Shown: positions 4,290 to 22,724 of the stretch, one piece after another | Layout: each line of letters starts with the position of its first letter | Numbering within the stretch: the first letter of the stretch is position 1 | Source: Butyrivibrio sp. | Lineage (GTDB): Bacteria; Bacillota; Clostridia; Lachnospirales; Lachnospiraceae | Direction of reading: 5' to 3' | Assembly: GCA_024697425.1 (NCBI GenBank) | Contig: JAILFT010000064.1 | Location: forward strand, 1 to 40,295 | Length of the DNA stretch: 40,295 nucleotides | Notes under the pieces: generated by a model | What the model was told of the DNA's origin: nothing | Databases searched by the model: none | What the model saw: the letters and a program-made list of their open reading frames with translations, nothing else | Position numbers and translations under genes: made by a program

Positions 4290-4319
4290 TTGACAAGTAC
4301 GGCTCCATTATTATATAAT
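4290..4319 (+). promoter_or_regulatory. sigma70/A-type promoter of the tRNA cluster
   Basis: TTGACA (4290-4295), 18-bp spacer, TATAAT (4314-4319), about 43 bp upstream of tRNA-Pro. Confidence 0.8.
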
Positions 4320-4455: not shown

Positions 4456-4526
4456 GCGGGTGTAGTTCAATGGTAGAACACCAGCCTTCCAAGCTGGACA
4501 CGTGGGTTCGATTCCCATCACCCGCT
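4456..4526 (+). tRNA. tRNA-Gly (TCC)
   Basis: GCGGGTG/CACCCGC acceptor, anticodon stem CCAGC/GCTGG with loop CTTCCAA, GGTTCGATTCC T-arm. Confidence 0.95.
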
Positions 4527-4538
4527 CTTTTGAGCAGA

Positions 4539-4660
4539 GCACTTGCTGAGGTTTTTTCGAAGCTAGTGCGAGCCATGGGTGGACACCTGACGAGGTACTT
4601 TCGAGTCTGGTGGAGCATCCCAGAGCAGAGCACTTGCTGAGGTCCTTCCGAAGCTGGTGC
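4539..4660 (+). ncRNA. Candidate structured RNA: three tandem hairpins of identical architecture between two tRNA genes
   Basis: Hairpins 4539-4569, 4584-4612 and 4630-4660 each share a >=4-bp basal stem, U-U mismatch, 3-bp stem, tandem GA/GA, 2-bp stem (GG/YC) and 5-nt loop; stem differences between units are compensatory or wobble. No ORF needed to explain it. Confidence 0.55.
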
Positions 4661-4700
4661 GAGCCATGGGGAACATTCCGAGGCATAGCTCAATTAAAAT

Positions 4701-4774
<74 letters not shown>

Positions 4775-4801
4775 TTCTTTTTTTCAGTTTTTTGTTATGA
4801 T

Positions 4802-17784: not shown

Positions 17785-20700
17785 ATGAAAAGAAGAGTGT
17801 GCCCTAAAAAGGCACTGGCTGTGATCCTGAGTGCGGCAATGGCTTTTTCACCCGCCATCACAGCTTCGGCAACGGCATCCGAGACTTTGACTGCGGAGAC
17901 AGCAGAAGTCAAAGAAGCTGAGGAAACTAAGGAAGCCGGCGAAGAGGCAGGCGAGGAAGTTACTTCCGAGGAAAAAGAGTCCGAGCAGGAAACTGCGGAA
18001 GAGACCAAGGGAGAATCAGAGGAGGCTGCAGGCTCAGAAGAGGCCAAGGAAGCGGCTGATGAAACCAAAGAGTCAGAGGACGAAGTCGACGAGGCTGCCA
18101 AAGAGGGAGAACTTGTTTTTGAGAAGGTTGACCCTGCTGAGGAAGAACTTGAGATTTCAGGTGCCAAGGATCTGGTTGAAGGAGAAGCAGCAGACTTCTC
18201 GGTCGCTACTCCCGATCCCGACGAGCAGACTCGTGTCATCATCGTAATGGAGGGTGACAGTGTACTTGATGCCGGTTTTGACACAGAGACACTTGCCGAG
18301 AATGATGCAGCTATGAATATGTCTGAGAACATCATTGCAGAGCAGGGGGTTCAGGTAGAAAAGATCGAAGCACAGGCTCTTGAAGGAGCTGAGCTCGATG
18401 TAAATTATAATCTCTCAATCCTTACAAATGCTGTATCAGCAGATGTTGCCTTTAAGGATATTGAGAGCATCGCAGATGTAGACGGAGTTGCAGCTGTATA
18501 TGTAGCTCAGAAGTATGAGCCTCAGGCTACAGATGCAGAGATCAACACCATTACAGCCGGCGATATGGTTGGAAGCTATGACACCTGGACAACAGGTTAC
18601 ACAGGTGCAGGCACAAGAATTGCAGTCATCGATACAGGTATCGATGCAGATCATCCTTCTTTTGACGGTGGAGCTTTTGATGCTCACCTTCAGGAGACAG
18701 CAGAAAAGGCAGGAAAGACAGTTGCTGATTACACCCTCCTTGATGAGAGCGAGATCGCAGCAGTTCTCCCCAACCTCAATGCAACCCAGAGAAACGGCGG
18801 CATTTCAGCTTCCGATCTGTATCTTAGTGAGAAGATCCCCTTCGCATTCAACTATGTAGACAAGGATCTTGATATAACTCATGCAAATGACAAGGAAGGC
18901 GACCACGGTACACACGTATCAGGTATCGCAACAGCCAACACTTATGTACCCAGTGCTGCATCCGAGACAGGATATGCAAGACAGGAACTTGGTGTTGTAG
19001 GTGTTGCTCCCGATGCACAGCTGATCACCATGAAGGTATTCGGAAAAGGCGGCGGAGCATATTCCGATGACTACATGGCAGCTATTGAGGATGCCCTTCT
19101 TCTTAAAGCTGACGTTGTAAACCTTTCTCTTGGTTCATCTGCAGCAGGATATTCCTCAGACGCAGAGGCTTACATCAATGATATTTTCAAGAAGCTTGAG
19201 GGAACAGGCACTGTTGTTTCTATTTCTGCAGGTAACTCAGGAAGATTCGGTGATGACACAGCTGTTGGTGCCAACCTCAGCTGGGATGTAAACATGGATA
19301 CCATCGGTTCTCCCGGATCCTACTACAATGCATTCACAGTTGCCAGCGCTGTTAACAGCGGTTTTACAGGAAACTACCTTGCTACAACAGACGGCAAGAA
19401 TATCTACTATACAGACGGTAATGATACACTGGCTCCTAAGTTCTATACTCTGGACGTATCTGCTGACGGTAAGGGAACAGAATATCCTTTCGTATTCATC
19501 AACGGTAAGGGCGCTGCTTCCGATTACGAAGCACTTGTTGATGAAAACGGAGAGAGCCTTGTAAAGGATAAGATCGTATTTGTACAGCGTGGTGAGCTGA
19601 CCTTCGGCGAGAAGCAGATGAACGCTGAGGCAGCAGGCGCTAAGGCTGTAGTTATTTACAACAATCAGCCCGGAACAATCTCCATGACTCTTCAGGGCAG
19701 CACAGCTGTTATCCCTGCTGTATCTGTAACTCTTGATGAGGGTCTTGGAGTAGCAGAGACTGCTACAGAGCAGATCAGTGAGAAGGCGTGCGCAGGTACT
19801 CTTACAGTTGTAGCAACACCTGCAACTAACTTTGAGGCAGCTGATGGTTACACCATGAGTGATTTCTCATCAGTCGGTGTTCCCGAAACTCTTGACCTTA
19901 AGCCTGAGATTACAGCTCCCGGCGGAAACATCTATTCCACAAGAGATGGCGGAACCTATGGAAACATGAGCGGAACTTCAATGGCTGCTCCTTCCATCGC
20001 AGGTCAGACAGCTCTTGTTGAGCAGTATATTAAGGAGAATGACCTTGCAGCAAAGACCGGACTTTCAGTTCGTAGCCTTGCTCAGGCACTTATCATGAGC
20101 ACAGCTGATCCTCTTACTACAGGCAATGATGCAAGTGCTCCCGAGTACTCACCCAGATCCCAGGGCGCAGGACTTGCAAACGTACATGATGCAGTAACAT
20201 CACCTTCATATGTTCTTGTTGGCGACAAGGCCGGCAACGATGGTAAGGTAAAGGTTGTTCTTGGAGACGATCCTTCAAGGAACGGCTCTTACAGCTTCTC
20301 ATTTGATGTATATAACCTTACAGATGAGCCTCAGTACTATGAGCTTGACTCAAGCGTCCTGACAGAGGAACTTATCCAGAACTATTTCATCATGTGTGAG
20401 TCCCACAAGCTCAGCCCTGAGGTTACTCTTACAGCAGATGACACAGCTCTTGTATATGACCTTAACTATGACGGAAGAGTAGACAAGAAAGACCGTAAGG
20501 TTCTTCTTCAGGTAGTAAACGGAAGCCTCGATCTCAACCTTGTATCCCAGAACGAGGACTATTTCGACTTCAATACAGACGGTATTGTAGATACTAAGGA
20601 CGTATATATCTTTGGTAAGCAGCTCAAGAAAAAAGATTCAGTGGTTGACCTTGGACGCAGAGTAATGCAGGTTAAGGATTCCACTAAGGTAAATGTTTCC

Positions 20701-21924
20701 ATCAACCTTTCAGCTGCAGACAGAGAGTATCTTGCACAGTTTGAGAACGGTATGTTTGTAGACGGTTTCGTATATGTTAACGGACCTGTGGATCTGTCAG
20801 TGCCTTTCCTTGCTTTCTACGGAAGCTGGATGGATTCTTCAATGTTTGAAGACTTCGACTTCATGGCATCAAGACATGATTCCAACTACGATGGATTCAC
20901 TTATTCAGGAGTTACAGCAACAAACTTCCTGACAATCTATCCCTTCGGTGATACATCTGAGGAAAATGAGCTGTTCTATGTTCCTAATCTTTTTGCAAAG
21001 GATGCTAAGTATATTGCCGACAGAAATGCCATAAGCTCAGATCCTAAGATGGGTACGGTTCTTGGCTCACTGTACTATTCACTTATCAGAAATGCCAGCA
21101 GATCCATCCTTACCATCACAGATAAGAATACCGGTGAGGAGTACTTCAAGAATGTGAACTATGAGAATTACGCAGAGTTCTCCTATGAGGGTCAGATCGT
21201 AAACTATTGGCAGACACAGGATCTTTTCTGGACAGGTACCGATGCTGAGGGCAATCCTCTTGAGGACGGCACAGAGGTTCTGGTTAACCTTCAGGCAGTT
21301 CCCAGCTACTATGATGATGTAGAGGATCCTTCAACTCTTGACGGAAAGGGACTTTACCTTCCTTCAACACCTATTGCTATCGATAACACAGCTCCTGAGA
21401 TTATGGGCTATGTACTCAATGAGGACGGAACACTTGGCGTTCAGGTACAGGATAACCGCTATACAGCAGCAGTCCTTATCCTCAATGAGGCAGGACAGAT
21501 TGTAGACAGATATGCTGTTGATCAGGAAACTAAGGGCGAAGAAGCAACTGTCAATATTAAGATGCCCGAAGGAACATTCTATGTTGATGTTGTTGACTAT
21601 GCATTAAATGAATCTGTATTCAGATTTACCAATAATACCAAGAAGAGCGAAGATGTAACCGAACCTACAGACAATGAGGAAAAAACCGGTGAGGATGCCG
21701 CTGAAGCTTCAGATGAAGAGGAGGTTTCCGAGGACGATTCCGACAAGACGGTTACAGACGAAGCTATTTCCAATGAGGATGCTTCAAGTGCTTCCTCCGA
21801 GACAGCAGATGTAGCTGATCTGACAGCAGAAGAGTCAGATCAGCAGGAAGAAGATGTGGAAGAGGTTCCCGCTGCTTCATCTGCTGATGAAGAAACATCT
21901 AAGGAGTTAGGAGGAAACGAATAA
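17785..21924 (+). CDS. Secreted S8 subtilisin-like (cell-envelope type) serine protease with PA insert, Fn3-like region, internal dockerin-like module and acidic low-complexity termini
   Basis: Signal peptide; own I9-like propeptide; Asp RIAVIDTGID, His GDHGTHVSGI, Ser MSGTSMAAPSIAG; PA-like DKIVFVQRGELTFGEKQMNAEAAGAKAVVIYNN; duplicated DxNxDGxVDxxD segments at about 20446-20633. Confidence 0.92.
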   Translation: MKRRVCPKKALAVILSAAMAFSPAITASATASETLTAETAEVKEAEETKEAGEEAGEEVTSEEKESEQETAEETKGESEEAAGSEEAKEAADETKESEDEVDEAAKEGELVFEKVDPAEEELEISGAKDLVEGEAADFSVATPDPDEQTRVIIVMEGDSVLDAGFDTETLAENDAAMNMSENIIAEQGVQVEKIEAQALEGAELDVNYNLSILTNAVSADVAFKDIESIADVDGVAAVYVAQKYEPQATDAEINTITAGDMVGSYDTWTTGYTGAGTRIAVIDTGIDADHPSFDGGAFDAHLQETAEKAGKTVADYTLLDESEIAAVLPNLNATQRNGGISASDLYLSEKIPFAFNYVDKDLDITHANDKEGDHGTHVSGIATANTYVPSAASETGYARQELGVVGVAPDAQLITMKVFGKGGGAYSDDYMAAIEDALLLKADVVNLSLGSSAAGYSSDAEAYINDIFKKLEGTGTVVSISAGNSGRFGDDTAVGANLSWDVNMDTIGSPGSYYNAFTVASAVNSGFTGNYLATTDGKNIYYTDGNDTLAPKFYTLDVSADGKGTEYPFVFINGKGAASDYEALVDENGESLVKDKIVFVQRGELTFGEKQMNAEAAGAKAVVIYNNQPGTISMTLQGSTAVIPAVSVTLDEGLGVAETATEQISEKACAGTLTVVATPATNFEAADGYTMSDFSSVGVPETLDLKPEITAPGGNIYSTRDGGTYGNMSGTSMAAPSIAGQTALVEQYIKENDLAAKTGLSVRSLAQALIMSTADPLTTGNDASAPEYSPRSQGAGLANVHDAVTSPSYVLVGDKAGNDGKVKVVLGDDPSRNGSYSFSFDVYNLTDEPQYYELDSSVLTEELIQNYFIMCESHKLSPEVTLTADDTALVYDLNYDGRVDKKDRKVLLQVVNGSLDLNLVSQNEDYFDFNTDGIVDTKDVYIFGKQLKKKDSVVDLGRRVMQVKDSTKVNVSINLSAADREYLAQFENGMFVDGFVYVNGPVDLSVPFLAFYGSWMDSSMFEDFDFMASRHDSNYDGFTYSGVTATNFLTIYPFGDTSEENELFYVPNLFAKDAKYIADRNAISSDPKMGTVLGSLYYSLIRNASRSILTITDKNTGEEYFKNVNYENYAEFSYEGQIVNYWQTQDLFWTGTDAEGNPLEDGTEVLVNLQAVPSYYDDVEDPSTLDGKGLYLPSTPIAIDNTAPEIMGYVLNEDGTLGVQVQDNRYTAAVLILNEAGQIVDRYAVDQETKGEEATVNIKMPEGTFYVDVVDYALNESVFRFTNNTKKSEDVTEPTDNEEKTGEDAAEASDEEEVSEDDSDKTVTDEAISNEDASSASSETADVADLTAEESDQQEEDVEEVPAASSADEETSKELGGNE

Positions 21925-22724
21925 TGAAGAATATTTTAAAGAGAACAGCGACTGCTTTTCTTGCTGCGCTGCTTCTTTTCACAGGTCTTCCTGCGCAGAA
22001 GGTAGAGGCAGCAAAGAGCGCACCGCTTAGCACAAGCGTTACCGTTACCGGTAAGAATGACAGCCAGAAGGTATTTTATACTCTGACTCTTAGCAAGACA
22101 AAAGTTACAGACGGACACATCGCAGTAGTATATGATCCCGAAGTTCTTGAAGTTGCAGCAGATATCGAGATTGACCGTTTTGACGATTACGATCTTAACA
22201 GCGATTATGAGGATGCCACAGGAAAGGGCATCGCCGTAGCATTTGTAAACGACGCTCCCAGAAACACAGCAGGTACTCTTGTTGCAATCAAGTTCAACGT
22301 TAAGAAGGGCGTTGCAGCTCAGGATACAGTTATCACCACAAGAGTATTCGACCTCAATAACGAGGAGAAAGAGCTCATCCCTGTTGAGACCGACCTTACA
22401 GACACTGTAAAGGTTGGCCGCGCAGAGCTTGCAAAGCCTAACCTTAAGTCTTTGAACCAGACTCTGCTTGGTGTTAATGTTACATGGAGCAAGGATAAGA
22501 ACGCTGACGGATATGTTCTGTATCGCAGCACATCCAAGGATGGCAAGTACACTGAGATCGCAACAACCACAGCCACAAGCTTCTGGGATGTTGTTCTTCA
22601 GAATAACAAGACATATTACTACAAAGTAAAGGCCTTCCAGGGCAAAGGTTCTGACAGAGTCTTCTCTGAGGAATCTAACGTTCTTTCCATAAAGGTTAAG
22701 AAGTTCCTCGGAATCTTCGGCTGA
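21924..22724 (+). CDS. Secreted cohesin-like domain plus fibronectin type III domain protein
   Basis: Signal peptide; VFYTLTLSKTKVTDGHIAVVYDPEVLEVAA...GKGIAVAFVNDAPRNTAGTLVAIKFNVKKG (cohesin-like); KPNLKSLNQTLLGVNVTWSKDKNADGYVLYRSTSKDGKYTEIATTTATSFWDVVLQNNKTYYYKVKAF (Fn3). Confidence 0.7.
   Translation: MKNILKRTATAFLAALLLFTGLPAQKVEAAKSAPLSTSVTVTGKNDSQKVFYTLTLSKTKVTDGHIAVVYDPEVLEVAADIEIDRFDDYDLNSDYEDATGKGIAVAFVNDAPRNTAGTLVAIKFNVKKGVAAQDTVITTRVFDLNNEEKELIPVETDLTDTVKVGRAELAKPNLKSLNQTLLGVNVTWSKDKNADGYVLYRSTSKDGKYTEIATTTATSFWDVVLQNNKTYYYKVKAFQGKGSDRVFSEESNVLSIKVKKFLGIFG

Follow-up and report, generated by a model that had tools for sequence, protein, structure and literature searches.

What are the three hairpins that lie between tRNA-Gly and tRNA-Arg in this Butyrivibrio genome, and do they belong to the tRNA operon in which they are found? 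The window (the whole stretch of 40,295 nucleotides analysed here) contains a cluster of seven tRNA genes, with the array in one of its spacers. The best explanation is a new mobile and transcribed small interspersed repeat, BOX- or MITE-like in kind and tolerated in the tRNA spacer, a reading that we consider probable but far from settled. With the same degree of confidence, the element is regarded as specific to Lachnospiraceae, short, non-coding and non-autonomous, its transcribed strand folding into hairpins with an invariant non-canonical core.

The array in the tRNA spacer

A structural scan of the window detected hairpins at 4540-4568, 4584-4612 and 4631-4659 with one shared architecture. 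The core covariance model R1 (31 positions with 10 pairs, derived from 18 copies in this genome) matched hairpins 1, 2 and 3 at the coordinates given in Table 1 with E-values of 2e-12, 1e-11 and 1e-10, respectively, and matched nothing else over the whole window. Positions and architecture, as drawn in the preliminary description of the locus, are thereby confirmed; the differences listed there between the three units are likewise as described, yet a single array of three units carries little evidential weight. The claims that the structure is not tRNA-shaped and in no Rfam family also hold, the Rfam search yielding only tRNAs in the window, and the promoter proposed upstream matches the sigma-70 consensus at 12 of 12 positions (consensus only).

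Table 1. Positions of the array, its parts and the neighbouring features in the window
Feature	Position	Strand	Remarks
Sigma-70-type promoter TTGACA-18-TATAAT	4290..4319	+	upstream of the tRNA operon; consensus match only
tRNA-Gly(UCC)	4456..4527	+	upstream of the array
Outer stem P0, UUGAGC (4530-4535)/GCUCAA (4688-4693), around the array	4530..4693	+	predicted; also in sister L233
Complete 91-nt two-hairpin (type A) unit	4532..4622	+	period 91; 4623-4670 repeats its first half
Hairpin 1 (module hp1)	4539..4569	+	5-bp basal stem, U-U, 3-bp GCU/AGC, GA/GA, G-C and G-U, loop UUUUU
Stem P2, UGGGUG/CA-CCCA, under hairpin 2	4576..4622	+	arms 4576-4581 and 4616-4622; both arms replaced jointly in other copies
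Hairpin 2 (module hp2)	4583..4613	+	CACC/GGUG, U-U, GAC/GUC, GA/GA, loop UACUU; outermost pair unformed
Hairpin 3 (second hp1 copy)	4630..4660	+	91 nt 3' of hairpin 1; 44/48 identical over 48 nt; missing in sister species
tRNA-Arg(UCU)	4700..4775	+	downstream of the array

The spacer consists of 1.5 copies of a 91-bp unit with the two modules hp1 and hp2. Judging from the sequences, units 1 and 3 most likely arose by tandem duplication, since the closest relative (L233) possesses a single 91-nt unit here, and the recurring linkers of the preliminary description are accounted for by the same duplication (offset and identity in Table 1). Isolated hairpins fold as first drawn, with energy z-scores of -2.0, -1.6 and -2.7, values so modest that folding energy by itself would not convince. 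For the whole spacer, the predicted fold of lowest energy joins unit 1 to unit 3 and forms no separate hairpins, as expected of repeats that are near-identical and palindromic. The inner part of P0 (4534-4535) can alternatively pair with 4572-4573, the C-G/U-A pair being coupled in 47 of 49 copies.

Distribution and architecture of the repeat

A loose IUPAC pattern performed no better in the genome itself than its reversed control, and covariance-model searches were therefore used. According to these, the 3.03-Mb draft genome contains about 28 copies of the 31-nt core hairpin, which is furthermore present in 38 of the 41 genomes sampled from the same genus (1-61 copies each) and in 73 of 298 Lachnospiraceae genomes at E<=1e-5. 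Named matches belong to Lachnospiraceae such as Butyrivibrio, Acetatifactor, Enterocloster, Faecalicatena and Eisenbergiella, and further matches occur in records titled only 'bacterium', 'Clostridiaceae bacterium' or 'Eubacteriales bacterium'. Samples of 245 genomes from the order and 243 from the class yielded, among the matches listed, none outside Lachnospiraceae; phages, plasmids and 2.9 million viral contigs (IMG/VR) contained no match to the core hairpin. In Rfam (release 15), matches to the window comprised only tRNAs at the gathering threshold and chance-level matches at a relaxed one, and 18 loci with longer forms returned only the unrelated Clostridiales-1, in L139. This RNA (RF01699) lies at L139:3785-3942, with a copy of the element about 0.9 kb away. 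The core sequence is unmatched in the full-text literature searched, and the repeat literature, covering few subscription papers, gave no description. The folded repeat family, found in many Lachnospiraceae genera of abundant gut and rumen bacteria, appears to be uncatalogued.

The genus of the window possesses two dominant forms. Type A consists of two hairpins 44 nt apart, a spacing of hp1 and hp2 that recurs in 49 copies, and the arms of P2 under its second hairpin differ among copies yet remain complementary (167 of 196 cells paired, at most 125 in shuffles). Type B is composed of one hairpin followed by a second of the form GUUCYGGCGAG...CGAGAGCAGAAC. Type C, the form found in other genera, is a longer rod with the core at its tip; its long outer arms are complementary to each other and vary from copy to copy. 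Between sister species (L059 and L337, L061 and L339), the tandem copy number of the second type B hairpin, or of its 3' part, varies (repeats of GCGAGAGCGGAACTTCCTTGTT). Seven hairpins stand in a row in L225; there, as well as in L131, L143, L153, L160, L182 and L215, which represent some of the genera, the hairpin begins 2-4 nt past a TATAAT-like sequence, as if the element included a promoter.

Conservation of the fold

The cleanest structural test is provided by 48 orthologous hairpin pairs at the same position, with flanks of 87% identity on average; stem pairs with both partners altered remain paired in 28 cases and are unpaired in 5, and one-sided changes keep pairing in 7 cases and break it in 5, counts that do not represent independent events, some loci being shared and a few misaligned (L264). 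If these changes are placed at random, 12 two-sided ones result (maximum 17). The U-U and GA/GA positions changed at 5 of 288 sites in these pairs.

A larger set of 234 distinct copies was gathered mainly by sequence pattern, many loci by a pattern fixing positions 4, 5, 6, 9, 23, 26, 27 and 28, so that the independent pairs are 1-31, 2-30, 3-29, 7-25 and 8-24. G-C and A-U exchange throughout the set at pair 7-25 (G-C 116, A-U 104, G-U 6, other 8) and at pair 8-24 (G-C 186, A-U 38, C-G 6, G-U 2, other 2). The eight pairs not named by the search pattern are all formed in 161 copies, and seven of them in another 53. Within the genome, alignment A1, for which copies had been picked by structure, possesses 98.3% paired cells (78.5% in shuffles) and 39 two-sided changes. 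Covariation is strong, even extreme, beyond this genome, and the earlier claim of a structure maintained by evolution is supported. U-U, GA/GA and GGU-NN-U-N-UC hardly vary while the stem letters change, an unusual case of stems rewritten wholesale around a frozen non-canonical core. G-T mismatches exceed A-C mismatches (24 vs 7) and 227 of 234 copies have G-U as their top pair, which identifies the given strand as the one that folds.

Mobility, context and alternative readings

The tRNA operon beside the yfcE-like gene of the window is conserved within the genus. Three hairpins occupy its Gly-Arg spacer in the window, and a single 91-nt unit with two hairpins occupies that of sister L233; other members of the genus possess one or two hairpins there, and L237, L241, L244, L249 and more lack the element. 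In L248 and L251 the element is located in the Pro-Gly spacer, with a short remnant between Gly and Arg; the Gly-Arg spacer of L258/L260 contains a type B element nested within a type A remnant. That the array belongs to the tRNA operon as such, as had been proposed, is not supported: orthologous operons lack the element or carry it in another spacer. What remains of the proposed RNA structure in a tRNA operon is the transcribed strand and the kept fold, but not its specificity to such operons, copies being mostly located between protein genes. Element-free Gly-Arg spacers (L237, L241, L244, L249, L251) possess a short hairpin directly after tRNA-Gly, with complementary, species-specific arms. 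In genus g50, the copy of G089 is missing from the orthologous intergenic region of several relatives.

The 6.1-Mb genome G806, of a distant genus, contains 261 matches to an 18-bp inverted end (control 0-1). These ends bound about 100 near-identical elements of typically 189 or 158 bp; the elements read contain the core hairpin rod (type C), and most are flanked by 9-10-bp direct duplications, e.g. AAGGCTGAAC and GCCGTGAAT. The element ends are CAATGTCATTAAGTTAAG and the target sites are rich in TTCA/TGAA (L375-L383, L389-L392); the flanks of L391 form an inverted, not a direct, repeat. The G806 form is a recently active and recently amplified MITE, with no coding capacity seen in the element and no transposase identified for it. 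A 1575-bp interval between two such ends, considered as a parent insertion sequence, contains a dehydrogenase-like ORF and no transposase. By analogy with this longer type C relative, type A would be mobile as well; inverted ends and target duplications are found for G806 type C alone, and the window array is therefore not filed as a MITE.

At co-oriented gene pairs of the window genus (genes called with a simple longest-ORF script), 53 sites are sense and 5 antisense, or 25 and 4 after merging of related flanks. Of the sense copies in the genus, 44 lie <=10 nt past a stop codon, which is often provided by the element's own 5' end (GAGTAGA or GGCTGAGA). Type B recurs between a sugar ABC permease gene and the corresponding solute-binding-protein gene, at sites that are partly paralogous and not independent. 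About nine arrays of the genus are located directly 3' of a tRNA gene on the same strand, and type C in other genera has 16 sense and 16 antisense copies. Recurrent neighbour proteins of the copies comprise only common families and the ABC permease/solute-binding pair, with no transposase.

A mobile repeat explains these data best on account of its many copies, polymorphic sites, tandem growth and one MITE form, and the fold kept by two-sided changes, the strand-specific folding and the sense orientation in the genus also point to a mobile structured repeat. The window copy would have inserted into the spacer of a tRNA operon and would be transcribed together with the tRNAs, tolerated because tRNA 3'-end maturation would remove the spacer RNA; we infer that the array is a tolerated passenger. 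Its fold may be kept because it is needed for spreading or bound by some factor, and copies that are misoriented, or whose RNA disturbs expression, would be lost. Against mobility stand the lack of a transposase tied to copies of the window genus and target duplications established for neither type A nor type B; it is also unusual that a mobile element should be missing from phages, plasmids and viral contigs. Nor would a decaying parasite need so strong a sense bias or such close structural upkeep at orthologous sites that are old. Upkeep at single sites, the invariant core and the sense bias in one genus are unusual for such repeats and leave room for an RNA role, possibly as a regulatory RNA module that is bound by a protein and has been spread by elements of this kind.

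By analogy, the repeat is most like the BOX elements of Streptococcus pneumoniae, which are modular, intergenic and transcribed, with a predicted stem-loop RNA and a middle module of variable copy number, and are thought to be non-autonomous mobile elements (PMC3049150). The likeness is one of kind, i.e. of small interspersed modular repeats, compared by general features and not by boxA-boxB-boxC sequence. The host family is another one and neither Rfam nor the literature gave shared sequence; BOX elements merely mirror gene strand bias and are enriched between convergent genes (PMC3049150), whereas types A and B are sense at 53 of 58 co-oriented sites of the genus and their core is structured much more strictly and occurs across many genera. 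GTAG/CGTC REP elements are also short palindromic intergenic repeats, often clustered and some inside longer palindromes (PMC3733652, a paper without the words Firmicutes and Clostridi*), features which the present repeat shares. Unlike these, its modules are direct tandem repeats and not head-to-head dimers, with no RAYT association, and no GTAG is found at the hairpin foot among the copies listed; type C possesses GTC before the hairpin, not an unpaired end tag. The G806 form resembles MITEs in its inverted ends, target duplications and lack of a transposase gene; in the window genus, unlike in MITEs, arms differ from copy to copy yet are complementary, the inverted ends and duplications being seen for the G806 form. 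Tandem GA/GA adjoining a stem recalls the kink turn, but the GA/GA of the core is symmetric and without a 3-nt bulge in all 49 two-hairpin copies, and an additional A is present in the GA/GA below hairpin 1.

Among the alternatives, a host regulatory RNA module survives best, as a possible though rather unlikely reading. The core would be a putative binding or cleavage site for a factor that sets the stability or processing of carrier transcripts, e.g. those of sugar transporter permease/substrate-binding-protein genes. Consistent with this are the core, invariant while the stems are free, the two-sided changes at orthologous sites, the sense bias with its copies close behind stop codons, and type B between ABC permease and solute-binding-protein genes; it fits poorly with a presence that is patchy among close species and even among the spacers of one operon, with the unbiased orientation of type C in other genera, and with the diversity of neighbouring genes. 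A more specific version, which we hold more tentatively still, takes the core as a putative site for an undescribed Lachnospiraceae RNA-binding protein or nuclease, spread by mobile elements to dozens of operons, one of them a tRNA operon, whose untranslated regions would carry it; if true, a post-transcriptional regulon has grown out of a dispersed repeat. Each genome provides dozens of natural pairs of orthologous sites with and without the element, suited to testing whether a mobile hairpin becomes a regulatory RNA. Strong RNA covariation, the case warns, can mark a dispersed repeat and not a gene-specific regulator.

An improbable alternative is a REP-like system whose mobiliser, an IS200/IS605-type (RAYT) tyrosine transposase, would act on single-stranded DNA in its folded form. 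Short, intergenic, tandem hairpins with strand-specific mismatches would suit it, but Y1_Tnp is absent in G023 and G032 (99-100% complete), which possess 29 and 28 copies, G024 combines 9 Y1_Tnp matches with 1 copy and G008 5 matches with 0 copies, no GTAG tag is seen among the copies listed, and no transposase family recurs beside copies. With no association with copy number, Y1_Tnp (IS200-type) as the mobiliser is largely refuted.

Even less probable is a mutational and not selected origin of the covariation, in which template switching in quasi-palindromes copies one arm onto the other. Whole arms are indeed replaced jointly and G-U intermediates are rare (7 one-sided changes kept vs 28 two-sided), but the U-U and GA/GA mismatches, which template switching would likewise repair, persist; the mechanism may therefore explain stem turnover, not the core, and may speed the exchange of arms as a partial contributor at most. 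The tRNA-processing signal suggested by the position in the window, and by the roughly nine arrays just behind a same-strand tRNA gene, is the least probable reading of all, since the repeat is dispersed mostly between protein genes and patchy at the orthologous tRNA operon, which in many congeners lacks the element.

Elsewhere, the window contains a 1379-aa secreted subtilase (17785-21924) with Peptidase_S8 and PA domains and, by eye, two dockerin-like repeats. The adjacent ORF (21924-22724) has no Pfam match and is cohesin-like by eye, the two forming a possible surface pair.
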